Shown piece after piece: positions 48,629 to 62,222 of a stretch of 64,000 nt of DNA. The stretch comes from Candidatus Eremiobacterota bacterium (lineage in GTDB: Bacteria; Vulcanimicrobiota; CADAWZ01; Ess09-12). The notes below the pieces were generated by a model. That model saw nothing but the letters and a program-made list of their open reading frames with translations, made no database searches and had not been told where the DNA came from. Position 1 is the stretch's first letter. Each line of letters starts with the position of its first letter. The stretch covers positions 1-64,000 of the forward strand of contig JAVHLM010000001.1 of assembly GCA_031082125.1 (NCBI GenBank), read 5' to 3'. A program made the position numbers and the translations under genes.

Positions 48629-49486
48629 TCAGTAAAAGCGGCGCTGCTCGCTGGCATCCGAGGCCCCCTCGTAGATCTTCCTGCGCATATGGCGGAGAAG
48701 GGGAAGCTCCCGTCTCACCTTGTAAACGCGCTCAATATCTATCTCACAGATCACGAGAGTCTCTTCCGCCCCTGCCTCCGTGAGGACCGATCCCCAGGGG
48801 TCAACGGCCATTGAGTGGCCGTAATACTTATAGGATGACTTTCCTCCTGCCGCGGGAGAGGCAGCCAGCACATAGACCTGGTTGTCCACGGCCCTCGCCC
48901 TCATAAGGATCTCCCAGTGGGCAGGCCCCGTAGTGCTGTTGAAGGCTGCAGGGAAGACAAGGATCTCGGCGCCTCTCATCACCATCGCTCTCGAAAACTC
49001 GGGAAAGCGCACATCATAGCATATGGCCACGCCGAGGGTGGCGAAATCGGTGCGCACCACGGTGATCTCATTTCCCGCGCTGATGGTGTCTGATTCCTTG
49101 AAGGTGATGCCCCCTTTTATGTCCACGTCAAAGAGGTGGACCTTCCTGTGCCTCCCAAGGAGCATTCCCCTCTCGTCAAAGATGAAACTGGCGTTATAGA
49201 GGCTCCCTTTGCCGTCTGTCTCGGGGATGGACCCTCCCACAAGGACTACCCTTTCATCTGAAGCGGCGCCGGAGAGCGCTTCCAGCGTCTCACCGCCGGG
49301 GTAGCTCTCGGCAAAAGAGTGGAAAAGCTCGGGCTCGAGGGGACAGTTGAACAGCTCGGGAAGCACCACCAGGGAGCATCCCTCTTCTGCGGCCTCCCTC
49401 ACCATATGAATGGCCTTGCTGATATTTGCCTGCTTTTCGCCGGCTATCCTGATCTGGCATAACCCGATTTTCAGGGGACTCCCCAT
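48629..49486 (-). CDS. carbon-nitrogen hydrolase, omega-amidase (Nit2)-like
   Basis: 285 aa with the Glu-Lys-Cys triad of nitrilases: Glu44 in VVLPELF, Lys115 in HRKVHLFD, and Cys156 in AICYDVRFPE. The HLFDVDI-(x)-GGITFKESDT stretch is as in Nit2-type omega-amidases, which hydrolyse alpha-ketoglutaramate or ketosuccinamate. Start at the second Met because AAGGAGG lies just upstream. Omega-amidases often act after glutamine or asparagine transaminases, so the adjacent aminotransferase could supply substrate. Confidence 0.88.
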   Translation of the reverse strand: MGSPLKIGLCQIRIAGEKQANISKAIHMVREAAEEGCSLVVLPELFNCPLEPELFHSFAESYPGGETLEALSGAASDERVVLVGGSIPETDGKGSLYNASFIFDERGMLLGRHRKVHLFDVDIKGGITFKESDTISAGNEITVVRTDFATLGVAICYDVRFPEFSRAMVMRGAEILVFPAAFNSTTGPAHWEILMRARAVDNQVYVLAASPAAGGKSSYKYYGHSMAVDPWGSVLTEAGAEETLVICEIDIERVYKVRRELPLLRHMRRKIYEGASDASEQRRFY

Positions 49487-58017: not shown

Positions 58018-60009
58018 TTAACTGAGAGGCGAGATTAAGCTCATTTTCCATGAAAAGTTAACATTTGGTGCGCATTTCCTGAAGCTTGCAAAAAGGCAGT
58101 CCGGGTCATACTGCTTTTCTCTCCCGATAAACTCGAAGCCGCAGTCTTCGGCGAGCTGCTTCAGAGAGCGCTCATTGGGGATTATCGAATGCTCGCCCGC
58201 ATAGGAAGTATTCACGCCGTCCCAGTGGGTCGATAAATTGTTCTTTCTCCACACGTCGCCATCGTAAGACTGCAGCGAGAATACCCCTGCCTCCCCGAGA
58301 AGAGCGTGAACCTGGCTGAAAATTTCCCGGGGCTCGTGGAAACGCTCGAAAACCTTGTTCATCCATACGAGGGTGAATTCCTTATCGGCTTCAAAGTGCT
58401 CAAAGGGCTGCCGGTGGAGTTTTCCCGCGAGGCGGGGGTATCTCTTTTCACTCTCCTCTATGGCGGCCCGGGAGGGATCGATCCCTTCGACTCCCCACCC
58501 CTGGCGCCGAAGCTCATCAAGCGTATGAGCCGTGCCGCAGCCCACGTCGAGCGCAAGGGCGCCGGCCTTGAAAAAATTCCTGTGGAGAATCCTGGCCACG
58601 TACCGCTGCCCGCTCTCGTTGATCCTTTCATGGTATTTGTCAAAATAGCCCAGAGTATAGAGAGGCTCCTCTGCCTCACCATCGGTGTAAATCACCGTGC
58701 AGTTAAGGCATTCGTAATAGCAGAGCCATTTTTTCCTTGAGATGAATCTCCTCCCGGTCCCCCCGCACACCGGGCAGTCCCGGCTTGCCAAGGGCTTGAA
58801 AGGCGTGGTGCCTTTCTGGAAGTCTCCCTCCATGACCTTGATGAACTCGCCGTAAAGCTCATCGGCAGTCACCTTGTCCGCGCAGAGAGAATAGCCTTCC
58901 TGGTTACGTTTTCTGCATATATCCACTCCATGCTGAAAGCACGGCCCGCAGGGTGCATCTATCTGCATGCACCTGGTTTTCTTATAATATCTCGTACTGA
59001 GATCGCCATCGGTTGAGAAGAATACCCCCAGGGAAGGCCTGTCAAAGCCTGCCGCCACGTGGAGCCCCCAGGAATCAGGGCCTATGAAGGCTTCTGCCCG
59101 GGAGATGATCGAGGCAACAGTCCTCCCTCCCACCTTTTCATTATCTATGAAGAAGAGGCCGGGAAAGCCGCTTTCGGCTCTCCGCCCCTTGCAGGGCATT
59201 CCGCATCTGCACTTGACGATGGCACTGCTGATTCCTTCAGGGAGGTCTATAAAGCTCCTTCTGCCGCACCTGCCGCACTTCACTGCCCCCCTCCGGCCCA
59301 GGCCGGTGTAGCCGAATAGAATGACCTTATGCCCTTCACCTGCCAGTCTCTTTGCAAGGTCAAACAGAGTTTCGGGCGGAAAGGTGCGGATTTTCGGGGT
59401 GGTATCATACTCAATAACTATATACTGTTCATTTTTTCTGAAACCCCACGACAAGAGAAGCTCATCGGCAGATCTTGATTCATTCAAGCGGAGAAAGATT
59501 TCAGGCCTTTTCTCGTGATCATCCAGCTCGATCCCTGCCCATCCCGCCATGAGATCGTAGATATTATTGAGCTCGCTCCCGCGGTATACTGACTCGATGC
59601 CGTCATATTTCAGCACGTCGTCGAACTCGTCCACAAAACGATAGCCTGCCTTGTTCTTCTGCACGGTGATTTTCGATATCCAGGGGTTGGCTTCAAGAAG
59701 CCCTGCTCCTTTTTTACTTGTATCCACCACCTGCATCACAACGGGATGTTGATTCGCATACGCCCGCAGCACCGGCGTAAGAAAGAGCATGTCATAAAGG
59801 GTGCCATGGTAAATATGAAGCACTTTTCTCACGGTACCCAGCTTCGCATGGCTTCTGCCCCACCATGGAGGCGTGATGTCCTTCCAGCCGCGCATGGTGA
59901 GGAAATGCCACCAGAATTGTTTCCAGACAATCATTTTTCCGTTAAATACCGTGTGGCCGTAAAGCTCCCCGTTTTCCACAGTTCCGGCCGGCGCCTTCAA
60001 TAGAAACAT
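58018..60009 (-). CDS. GT9-type glycosyltransferase fused to a SAM methyltransferase
   Basis: 663 aa. The N-terminal ~390 residues resemble family 9 glycosyltransferases (heptosyltransferase): HIYHGTLYDMLFLTPVLRA, IVIEYDTTPKIRTFPPETLFDLAKRL, and a donor site SRAEAFIGPDSWGLHVAAGF. An inserted Cys-rich element (KCGRCGRRSF...KCRCGMPCKGR) sits between the two halves of this domain. A second zinc ribbon follows (CPVCGGTG...CLNC), then a class I methyltransferase (LALDVGCGTAHTLDEL, GIDPSRAAIEES) to the end. Such a protein could build and methylate a surface glycan. No ribosome site is evident before the ATG. Family membership is by motif; substrate unknown. Confidence 0.78.
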   Translation of the reverse strand: MFLLKAPAGTVENGELYGHTVFNGKMIVWKQFWWHFLTMRGWKDITPPWWGRSHAKLGTVRKVLHIYHGTLYDMLFLTPVLRAYANQHPVVMQVVDTSKKGAGLLEANPWISKITVQKNKAGYRFVDEFDDVLKYDGIESVYRGSELNNIYDLMAGWAGIELDDHEKRPEIFLRLNESRSADELLLSWGFRKNEQYIVIEYDTTPKIRTFPPETLFDLAKRLAGEGHKVILFGYTGLGRRGAVKCGRCGRRSFIDLPEGISSAIVKCRCGMPCKGRRAESGFPGLFFIDNEKVGGRTVASIISRAEAFIGPDSWGLHVAAGFDRPSLGVFFSTDGDLSTRYYKKTRCMQIDAPCGPCFQHGVDICRKRNQEGYSLCADKVTADELYGEFIKVMEGDFQKGTTPFKPLASRDCPVCGGTGRRFISRKKWLCYYECLNCTVIYTDGEAEEPLYTLGYFDKYHERINESGQRYVARILHRNFFKAGALALDVGCGTAHTLDELRRQGWGVEGIDPSRAAIEESEKRYPRLAGKLHRQPFEHFEADKEFTLVWMNKVFERFHEPREIFSQVHALLGEAGVFSLQSYDGDVWRKNNLSTHWDGVNTSYAGEHSIIPNERSLKQLAEDCGFEFIGREKQYDPDCLFASFRKCAPNVNFSWKMSLISPLS

Positions 60010-60131
60010 TTTTTCTCTAACCCGTCCTTCAGCCTGAATCGGGCCTGCCCACCGGCGGTGAGACCCGGAGCGCAGTATTTCCCTTGTTCCGTAATATTTC
60101 TCTCAATAATCCTCCTTACCTTCAGCTCCTT

Positions 60132-60186
60132 CTTCATCAAGTCTTCACGGAGACTTCACCGTGCCTTCACAGTGAAACCTTATAAT
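60132..60186 (+). promoter_or_regulatory. PHO-box-like repeats upstream of a TATAAT box
   Basis: CTTCAT at 60132 and CTTCAC at 60143, 60154 and 60165 recur every 11 bp. The last ends 10 nt before TATAAT (60181-60186), and there is no normal -35. This is the layout of promoters activated by OmpR/PhoB-type response regulators, where direct repeats replace the -35. It would drive the C10 peptidase gene with a leader of about 200 nt. The rest of 60010-60131 shows nothing further. Confidence 0.6.
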
Positions 60187-60389
60187 AAAACCGGGGAGCA
60201 GGGAGAAATTGAGGAGGAGCCGGTCTTATTGACATCAGAATCGCTTTCCAGGAAAGGAGGAAGGAAAAGAGGAGCATAATAGCGCACTAATACTTATTCC
60301 GGGTATGGCGGTGAGATGATTTCTGCCTCATGGCTTGCCGTCTGGTCTATGTACTTGTCTTGCATATCATCAAAAAGGAGCTTGGTTCC

Positions 60390-62222
60390 ATGCCCACAAA
60401 GAAAATCAACGCAGTAAAAGCTTCCATGTTCGTGACTATAATGCTTCTGTGCGCCCTGTGCCTGAATTCCGGTTGCTGCAGCGGCGGCCAGAACAGCGTA
60501 GCGCCCCTTTCATGGTCGGGTTCGGGAGAAGGCACGGCGGGAGGAAACGTCGTCAAGGGCGCAGTCGTTGACTGCGACTCCCTCGAACCCCTCAGTAACG
60601 CGAGCGTCTCCATAGGCACCCTGAAGACCACCACGGATGCCCAGGGGAACTATACCCTCACAGGGGTTCCCGCGGGACAGCAGACTATAGAGGCGACATG
60701 CAGGGAATACAGTGATGACCGCGAGCAGGTAATGGTGAGCGAAGGACAGGAAGCCACTCAGGACATCACCATGGAAACCGCCATAGACGATTGGCTGGAG
60801 CAGGACCAGGCATATAACTGGCAGGTTGAAGCGGTACAGGCCGATGGAACGCTTGTGCCCGGACCGGTCTGGAGCTTTTCCACCGGGGCGGCGAGGAGCG
60901 TGCGACCTCTCTCGGTACCCCAGGGAATCGACGGGGATACTGCAAGGAAAGTGGCGGAGACCTTCCTGGCCTCACACGGACCGAAATACTGCGCCATCAT
61001 ATCAGTGGAGCCCATTTCAGGGATTGGAGGAGTAACGCTCGCCTATGCTTTCCGGCTCAGCCCCGCGGGCTATGTCATAGTCCCTGCATGCAGCGCCGAC
61101 GTGCTGCCTCCCGTGCTGGCCTATTCATTTACTTCGCCATTCTCCACGCACAGCGCTTCTTCACTTGCGCTGGTGAAAATGATCCGCTCCGACATCACAT
61201 TGAGGCTCTCGGCTCTTCAGCAGAAAGCCACGATCCCCCCGTCGCTAAGCCAGAAAAACAGGGCACTCTGGGAAAGCTCCCTGTCGGGGAAATGGGCGGC
61301 AGAAACCGGGCGGGCAGTTTACGGCCCCCTCCTCACCGATCCCACCTGGGGCCAGAGGTCCCCTTACAACAAGCTCTGTCCCATGGATCCGGAAACTGAA
61401 GTCCAGTGCATTACCGGGTGCGTGGCGACTGCTTACAGCCAGGTCCTCAATTACTGGAAGGTGCCCACTGCAATCACTTTCACCGCCGCTGACAACTATA
61501 CGACAAAAACCAGAGAAATTGCCATAACCGCTTCCTCGGCGAGTTTCTCGGGCCTCAACTACAACAATGGAACGCCCGACGGCGATACCAAGGCGAAGCT
61601 CTGTTTCGCCTTGGGCGTGGCTGCAAAGATGAACTACACGAGCAAAAACTCAACAGCCTACACGCTTCAGGTGGGCAAGACCATGACCAGGTTCGGCTAC
61701 AATGAGCCGAAAACCATAAGCTTCGGAGTAAATGACACCCTGGATACCTCATACCTCGTCAACGATCTCAAGGCTTCAACAGGCCACCCCGTGGTGATGG
61801 CCATAAGCGAGGTCAACGACCAGGGTAATTTCTCGGGAGGGCACTGCATTGTCTGCGACGGCTATAACGACTCCACCGGGACCTTCCATCTCAACATGGG
61901 ATGGAACAGCAGCCAGGACGGGTGGTACTCGCTCCCGGGCGGGATGCCCTCCGATTACACGAACGTGAAAGGGTACGTGTACAATATGACTCCGGCGTCA
62001 AAAGGCACGGCGGCTCAGAAGGCCGCCCGCGCGGTGACGCCTGAGAATCCTTACCCCGAGAACGGGGAAACCCGCGTGGCCGTCGATGACGAGCTGCTCT
62101 GGGACGAATGCGACAATGCAGTCTCATACCACTGTTATTTGTGGAAATCGGGGAGCCAGAAGCCTGCCGTCCCCACTTTCAGCAACCTTCCCTGTGGCGC
62201 GGCAAGCCCTGCTAATCTCTAG
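60390..62222 (+). CDS. C10-family (streptopain) cysteine peptidase, lipoprotein-like
   Basis: 610 aa. An N-terminal signal with Cys-rich end (LCLNSGCCSGG) fits lipidation or export. A carboxypeptidase-regulatory-like beta domain follows (VVKGAVVDCDSLEPLSNASV...TTDAQGNYTLTGVPAG), then a fragment of a fibronectin-like domain (YNWQVEAVQADG...PVWSFSTG). The peptidase carries catalytic Cys344 in TGCVATAYSQ and His485 in GGHCIVCDGY, as in SpeB. The N-terminal half of a fibronectin-like domain ends the protein (PENPYPENGETRVAVDDELLW) with an abrupt stop. It is probably secreted or surface-anchored. AAGGAG lies about 10 nt before this Met; the frame from 60330 adds 20 residues without support. Confidence 0.82.
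   Translation: MPTKKINAVKASMFVTIMLLCALCLNSGCCSGGQNSVAPLSWSGSGEGTAGGNVVKGAVVDCDSLEPLSNASVSIGTLKTTTDAQGNYTLTGVPAGQQTIEATCREYSDDREQVMVSEGQEATQDITMETAIDDWLEQDQAYNWQVEAVQADGTLVPGPVWSFSTGAARSVRPLSVPQGIDGDTARKVAETFLASHGPKYCAIISVEPISGIGGVTLAYAFRLSPAGYVIVPACSADVLPPVLAYSFTSPFSTHSASSLALVKMIRSDITLRLSALQQKATIPPSLSQKNRALWESSLSGKWAAETGRAVYGPLLTDPTWGQRSPYNKLCPMDPETEVQCITGCVATAYSQVLNYWKVPTAITFTAADNYTTKTREIAITASSASFSGLNYNNGTPDGDTKAKLCFALGVAAKMNYTSKNSTAYTLQVGKTMTRFGYNEPKTISFGVNDTLDTSYLVNDLKASTGHPVVMAISEVNDQGNFSGGHCIVCDGYNDSTGTFHLNMGWNSSQDGWYSLPGGMPSDYTNVKGYVYNMTPASKGTAAQKAARAVTPENPYPENGETRVAVDDELLWDECDNAVSYHCYLWKSGSQKPAVPTFSNLPCGAASPANL

Follow-up and report, generated by a model that had tools for sequence, protein, structure and literature searches.

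The 64,000-nucleotide (nt) stretch considered here, referred to throughout as the window, comprises positions 1 to 64,000 of the forward strand of contig JAVHLM010000001.1 from a Candidatus Eremiobacterota bacterium (GenBank assembly GCA_031082125.1), whose genome of 7,431,043 bases (7.43 Mb) comprises 69 contigs and is 97.59% complete. The element of interest, at 60132 to 60186, consists of four CTTCA(C/T) repeats in 11-base-pair (bp) steps followed by a TATAAT box; it is oriented away from a divergent gene and towards a gene for an exported C10 peptidase. The features of the locus are listed below; sites elsewhere in the genome are given as Cn:position, for contig and start.

58018..60009, minus strand: divergent upstream gene (open reading frame list)
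60132..60137, plus strand: repeat unit 1, CTTCAT (sequence read, repeat search, genome pattern search)
60143..60148, plus strand: repeat unit 2, CTTCAC (as unit 1)
60154..60159, plus strand: repeat unit 3, CTTCAC (as unit 1)
60165..60170, plus strand: repeat unit 4, CTTCAC, 10 nt 5' of the -10 element (sequence read, repeat and pattern searches, spacing test)
60181..60186, plus strand: -10 element TATAAT (sequence; unique best hexamer at the conserved spacing)
60375..60380, plus strand: AAGGAG, probable ribosome-binding site of the C10 peptidase gene (sequence read)
60390..62222, plus strand: exported protein (signal by eye) with CarboxypepD_reg, Spi-inhibitor and Peptidase_C10 domains, led by the array (open reading frame list, domain scan)

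The positions of the four units, their 11-bp steps and the 10 nt that separate them from TATAAT agree exactly with the original prediction, which had also claimed that a normal -35 element is absent: a consensus scan of 59900-60500 found no sigma-70 -35/-10 pair. A three-unit CTTCA pattern with up to two mismatches has three matches in the window (two of them being registers of the present array), compared with a mean of 0.22 in shuffled sequence, where none of 100 shuffles reached three; from the base composition of the window, perfect four-unit arrays of period 11 are expected 7e-8 times per 64 kb. The sequence TTCAC, occurring at 60144, 60155 and 60166, reproduces the TTCACN6TTCAC arrangement of the cre/blr tag, and an extra CTTCAG at 60120 is out of phase with the array by one base. 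The protein encoded at 60390..62222 matches Peptidase_C10 (PF01640) with an expect value (E) of 3.9e-36. An RNA element was also considered and rejected, the window giving zero Rfam matches at the gathering threshold. At 745-800 of the window there is, in addition, a degenerate array (CTTCAT, CTTCAC, CTTTAT and CTCAA in 11-bp steps, then TATAAG one base off the usual spacing), which is possibly a decayed or weak site.

Recurrence of the array at a fixed distance from the -10 element

Searches of the whole genome, controlled with the reversed patterns, returned 26 rows versus 1 for the four-unit pattern with up to three mismatches, 38 versus 1 for the four-unit pattern plus TANNNT at the window spacing, and 28 versus 0 for three TTCAY units plus TATAAT; these rows include duplicates shifted by one unit in register, and the TANNNT search also takes in a second, TTCAG-type set. 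About 14 promoters were counted as one set, against 0-1 for the reversed patterns: C1:60132 (the window array), C2:43149, C2:306344, C2:367904, C13:23523, C17:49918, C20:85749, C22:38037, C22:41144, C22:49474, C30:3228, C33:27176, C34:26623 and C41:47319. The sites C51:5768, C4:140889, C1:148648 and C43:8532, together with other weaker rows, were excluded by judgement. The suggestion that this genome would hold further such arrays, with a regulon behind them, is thus strongly borne out.

To avoid circularity, the spacing was tested on arrays found without use of the -10, the best TATAAT-like hexamer then being sought at gaps of 0-30 nt. The 13 rows with 0-2 mismatches reduce to 12 distinct arrays (one register shift removed, C51 included), and in 12/12 the best hexamer falls at the window spacing (9 unique, 3 tied); the chance of this is 0.082 per array, as estimated from random places in the window. 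Nine of the 13 rows with three mismatches were tested, after three register shifts and the row C33:22531, a sequence duplicate of C1:476795, had been set aside: C2:306361 and C17:49917, both already known from the -10-based search, are tied best at the window spacing and look real, C30:72810 has a weak unique hexamer (4/6), C11:51733 gives a meaningless tie (2/6), and the other five have no best hexamer at that spacing. A separate count of 14/14 was not used as a test, since two of its rows were picked with knowledge of the -10-based search. Across the 14 arrays, the best match to TTGACA at 15-19 nt from the -10 never exceeds 3/6.

The TTC of all four units and the TA...T of the -10 are invariant among the 14 promoters. 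At unit position 8, G is present in units 1, 2, 3 and 4 of 11, 6, 8 and 3 promoters, respectively, and at position 7, A is present in 0, 6, 1 and 12; these two positions show a two-unit alternation, which would fit the binding of two dimers. When the 14 loci were compared with one another (plus strand, 700 nt upstream to 900 nt downstream, E 1e-3), the likeness proved to be short and mostly limited to the array and the first peptide codons, the exceptions being a 34-nt match in downstream coding sequence between the window and C34, and the pair C2:43k/C20:85k, which is 72% alike over 333 columns starting at the array.

Seven small peptides as the core of a proposed regulon

Seven of the 14 arrays lead genes for peptides of 32-36 residues, each with a ribosome-binding site and with its start codon (six ATG, one GTG) 33-42 nt past the -10. 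The peptides have a conserved N-terminus, [MV]I[TQ].[VM][FY].G, and a variable C-terminus; M1 (V in the GTG-started peptide), I2, G8 and two cysteines are invariant in their alignment, a third cysteine being present in one peptide. Searched against the genome, a profile of the seven recovers all of them (E 1.7e-16 to 5.5e-12), while every further match is at E 1.57 or worse. No NCBIfam model matches any of these peptides at E 0.1, and in Pfam all seven stay below the cut-offs, with a single chance-level match to DUF7563 (E 0.056). The core of the regulon is a family of small peptides, with the conserved leader and variable core expected of the several short precursors of a ribosomally synthesized and post-translationally modified peptide (RiPP) system; they are most likely the precursors of a modified, exported peptide.

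Behind the arrays at C17 (after 49971, locus L060) and C30 (L066) stands a good ribosome-binding site, as far from the array as is usual for the peptide genes, but no peptide frame follows; these sites may be decayed peptide genes. Among 11 array loci scanned with ARAGORN, four have transfer RNA (tRNA) genes within ~360 bases of the array or peptide (L056:5903-5987, L061:5201-5282, L064:5416-5488 and L060:4530-4781; Tyr, Tyr, Trp and Met/Glu/Val), both Tyr cases being the related pair C2:43k/C20:85k. This proximity hints that insertion beside tRNAs may have occurred; flanking repeats, sought at the tRNA-linked copies L056 and L061, were not found.

The C22 locus and the candidate regulator

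One array lies immediately behind a regulator gene and leads an exporter and a radical S-adenosylmethionine (SAM) enzyme with a SPASM domain:

C22:40416-41126: OmpR-type response regulator gene, ending 17 nt before the array
C22:41144-41197: array, first unit TTCG, leading the exporter/SPASM operon
C22:41250-43025: ATP-binding cassette (ABC) exporter (PF00005, PF00664; domain scan)
C22:43040-44455: radical SAM/SPASM protein (domain scan)

Further arrays on this contig are at 38037, before a peptide gene, and at 49474, placing three of the 14 within 11.5 kb. The array at C22:41144-41197 would thus put a maturase and an exporter under shared control, as in RiPP systems. The SPASM enzyme contains CNLRCKYC, the CX3CX2C motif of radical SAM enzymes, and its five best NCBIfam models are all peptide maturases: CcpM, RumMC, TIGR04148, lachnocin and PapB. 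The best of these, the Cys-rich peptide maturase CcpM (TIGR04068), scores 224.5 bits, below its cut-off of 500, and by this score the enzyme does not qualify for the CcpM system; nor do the peptides match any curated precursor model.

Beside this operon is a second set of genes, convergent with the C22:49474 array, on the minus strand at about C22:49584-52916 (L055:17587-19158 together with L281:350-2517). It encodes HxsC (TIGR03977; 322.4 bits, cut-off 267.9), a radical SAM protein into the convergent end of whose gene that array runs, and, upstream on the same strand, HxsB (TIGR03978; 543.4 bits, cut-off 370), along with two proteins that fall below their cut-offs, one HxsD-like (41 versus 50 bits) and one of the His-Xaa-Ser repeat type (26.9 versus 55 bits). 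This Hxs set is a known kind of peptide-modification locus. In the 11.6 kb from C22:50400 onwards (L281), no three-unit array was found with one mismatch allowed.

The genome has 12 Trans_reg_C matches, nine of them in response-regulator-type proteins. The C22 regulator is 35-41% identical to Escherichia coli CreB, PhoB and BaeR (~35% to CreB), and its best solved relative is BaeR. It scores 205.7 bits with the CreB model (cut-off 273), too low for a CreB/BlrA orthologue, and 192.2 bits with the PhoB equivalog model (cut-off 296.2), the C22 protein being the only one of the nine so scanned. Its recognition helix, FDRTIDAHIKNIRHK, resembles that of CreB, YDRTVDTHIKTLRAK, but those of the regulators L051 and L047 are about equally similar, such that the C22 protein is the favourite by position and not by sequence. 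On that footing, it is the most likely regulator of the arrays.

Other genes behind the arrays

Four arrays lead exported proteins (signals by eye). Besides the C10 peptidase of the window, these are a 622-residue lipoprotein-like protein at C30, which has a CarboxypepD_reg domain in common with the peptidase, and two small Gly/Tyr-rich proteins at C33 and C34. At C17, a sulfatase gene starts 211 nt after the -10 (Sulfatase, 231.5 bits, versus a weak type I phosphodiesterase match of 27.3 bits). Three C10 peptidases are encoded in the genome, and neither of the two outside the window is preceded by a three-unit array within 400 nt of its open frame; consequently, the window C10 peptidase looks like a peripheral member of the regulon, and a control specific to C10 peptidases was rejected. 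The original proposal is supported in part, though not in its suggestion of phosphate control.

Comparison with known systems

Published systems are compared here with the arrays on the basis of excerpts of the cited papers. The cre/blr tag, TTCACN6TTCAC, is bound by CreB in E. coli and by BlrA in Aeromonas (PMC4689548, PMC3660660); the arrays have the identical core and 11-bp period, but four units instead of two, different genes behind them and, in the C22 protein, a regulator below the CreB model cut-off. The PHO box is made of two 11-nt direct-repeat units, those of Streptomyces coelicolor PhoP being GTTCACC (PMC4415409), and the E. coli pho box is said to substitute for the -35 region (PMC4971064); again, 11-nt direct repeats adjoin the -10 as in our arrays, whereas the array core differs from CTGTCAT. 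Upstream of E. coli creD we find TTCAC-11-TTCAC-10-TTCAA, then 10 nt, then CATAGT, and upstream of phoB, TTCAT-11-GTCAT, then 10 nt, then CATAAT (-10 picked by eye in both); repeat core, 10 nt and a -10-like hexamer are thus a layout in common with the arrays. On this comparison, the window promoter would work like one of the PhoB class, although it fails as a member of a Pho regulon and its candidate regulator fails as a CreB orthologue. The OmpR/PhoB-type geometry put forward originally, with repeats in place of a -35, is accordingly strongly supported by the architecture: tandem direct repeats of ~11 bp that abut the -10 at a fixed distance.

CssR, which acts in secretion stress in Bacillus subtilis, is an OmpR-type regulator with exported proteases as targets. 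Its box, TTTTCACA (PMC6749698), has the TTCAC core in common with the arrays, but no HtrA-type gene was seen behind the 14. Prochlorosins provide a parallel for the peptides, their precursor genes being scattered over the genome and served by one maturase (PMC10783134); dispersed small precursors with one modification enzyme would be common to both, whereas the prochlorosin enzyme is a lanthipeptide enzyme and not a radical SAM/SPASM protein, and the excerpt does not mention a shared response-regulator promoter. In the open-licence literature, we recognised no paper describing the present regulon.

Occurrence in other genomes and a second array set

Across 84,980 genomes of a public collection, at least 119 stretches have four TTCAY units, 10 nt and TANNNT, where ~0.1 would be expected (by arithmetic at even base composition); some of the matches are plain tandem repeats. 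TATAAT is matched at 5/6 positions or better in 39 of 84 array instances read from 80 of these loci (one locus contributing three that overlap). The genes behind them are diverse: many encode proteins that look exported by eye, one an MMPL transporter (L122) and one a sodium/phosphate (Na/Pi) cotransporter (L129). Given this number of stretches and this diversity, the promoter type is widespread. The same layout also stands before what seems to be the same gene in Planctomycetota (L129, L162, L175) and in Bacillales (L122, L136, L141), the Na/Pi cotransporter being confirmed for L129 and MMPL for L122, and the remaining four being judged by eye; such repeated pairing suggests conserved regulons of other response regulators. 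Closer to the window, 58 genomes were searched (own included), none besides its own being in the same genus or family, and 19 of them have a pattern match; 27 loci taken from the relatives' matches (L075-L101) contain 29 array instances on both strands, none with a peptide of the family N-terminus within the following 100 nt. A distant SPASM relative (28% identity) is present in one other of 149 phylum genomes.

The window's own genome also contains other arrays of 11-bp period, forming a second set whose unit is of the TTTTTCAG type, often placed after a TTAACA-like sequence and mostly without a good -10 (C28:21685, C8:32981, C8:34426, C25:32880, C37:42913, C65:2790, C65:4687 and C4:140889; loci L058, L067, L072, L073 and L074). 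They lead low-complexity proteins that appear related by eye, the C28 protein having a Glucosaminidase domain. The C28 array is just past another OmpR-type regulator gene (Trans_reg_C at C28:21385-21615).

Interpretation

We interpret the arrays as OmpR-type-regulated promoters of a dispersed RiPP-like peptide regulon, which includes exported proteins such as the C10 peptidase; from the sequence evidence, we would put the probability of this at roughly two in three. In the mechanism that we propose, a phosphorylated OmpR-family regulator would fill the four repeats in head-to-tail order, with units 1-2 and units 3-4 probably taking one dimer each, and recruit a sigma-70-type RNA polymerase to a promoter that has a -10 only. 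The seven precursor peptides, the maturase, the exporter, the window C10 peptidase and the three other exported proteins would thereby be co-induced; the SPASM enzyme would cross-link the peptides and the exporter would secrete them, as in a RiPP system with dispersed precursors. As there are ~14 sites, seven of them before genes for Cys-containing peptides, the arrays probably serve one coordinated peptide programme rather than a phosphate response.

Several observations weigh against this interpretation. Two arrays, C17 and C22:49474, have no convincing close product, and the gene start is distant from the -10 in the window (203 nt, to the ATG of the C10 peptidase gene) and at C30 (251 nt). 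With the SPASM enzyme, the exporter and the C22 regulator alike, not one of the 25 NCBIfam models shown reaches its cut-off. Two peptide maturase loci are side by side on C22 and, with HxsB and HxsC beside the last array there, the pairing of the SPASM enzyme with the peptides is not the sole possibility. Eight OmpR-type response regulators are encoded besides that of C22, and comparison with CreB, PhoB and BaeR does not single out the C22 protein: in its DNA-binding part, L051 is as like CreB (0.368) as is the C22 protein (0.364). Moreover, no other full-length peptide was found in 149 phylum genomes (own included; one marginal partial match, E 0.009), and with the peptide system found in this genome only, conservation gives no test of the interpretation.

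One rival explanation concerns the peptides, which might not be substrates of the C22 SPASM enzyme at all, but act unmodified (for example, on membranes) or be served by another maturase. Their C-terminal halves look hydrophobic by eye, not one of the seven matches a known precursor model, and a His-Xaa-Ser maturase set is close by; the peptides themselves, however, are without His-Xaa-Ser repeats (by eye), and a conserved N-terminus, a variable C-terminus and two invariant cysteines, together with a promoter in common with an exporter and with a SPASM enzyme that peptide maturase models match best, make this doubtful, albeit well short of negligible. The regulator might likewise be another OmpR-type protein, such as L051 or L047, with that of C22 merely a neighbour: the helices of L051 (IDMHIKNLRRK) and L047 (VDVHVKNIRKK) are about as CreB/BaeR-like as that of C22 (IDAHIKNIRHK). 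We regard this as unlikely, given that 17 nt separate the end of the C22 regulator gene from an array and that three of the 14 arrays are gathered within 11.5 kb there.

A PHO regulon, in which a PhoB orthologue would bind the arrays as PHO boxes and the C10 peptidase would be under phosphate control as originally suggested, draws on the closeness of the S. coelicolor core GTTCACC to CTTCAC (PMC4415409, excerpt), on the same layout before a Na/Pi-cotransporter gene in Planctomycetota (PF02690 confirmed for L129; L162 and L175 by eye) and on the presence, elsewhere in this genome, of L043, a regulator 45% identical to E. coli PhoB. Yet PhoU (PF01895) has no match in this 97.6%-complete genome, the same search being positive in 13/14 control genomes; a single gene of the PBP_like_2 (PstS-type) family was found, and the 13 kb around it contain no three-unit array (PstA, PstB and PstC were not searched); and no phosphate gene was recognised behind the 14 arrays, the nearest being the C17 sulfatase. 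On the PhoU and PstS-type families and the PhoB model score of the C22 regulator, a PHO regulon was rejected, and phosphate control of the window promoter is very improbable. As for the repeats of the window being a functionless product of chance or slippage, a single array could well originate by slippage, but recurrence, a fixed distance to the -10 and placement before one peptide family leave this explanation scarcely credible.

Several consequences follow. Phosphate control should not be concluded from an array of TTCAC units alone, and the 14 promoters provide a test list for the number of repeat units that a response regulator needs. The promoter motif also offers a handle on peptide genes that have no family match, the seven genes of 32-36 codons having been found solely through it, and it connects scattered candidate precursors with a maturase and an exporter encoded far from them within one genome. 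More speculatively, and in our view rather improbably, the programme may be self-reinforcing: the exported, SPASM-modified peptides would be the signal or the stress that activates the C22 regulator, this would in turn induce the seven scattered precursor genes, their maturase and exporter and the C10 protease from the four-unit promoter, and the exported protease would trim the peptides. Were this so, the organism would possess a genome-wide, combinatorial peptide signal or weapon.
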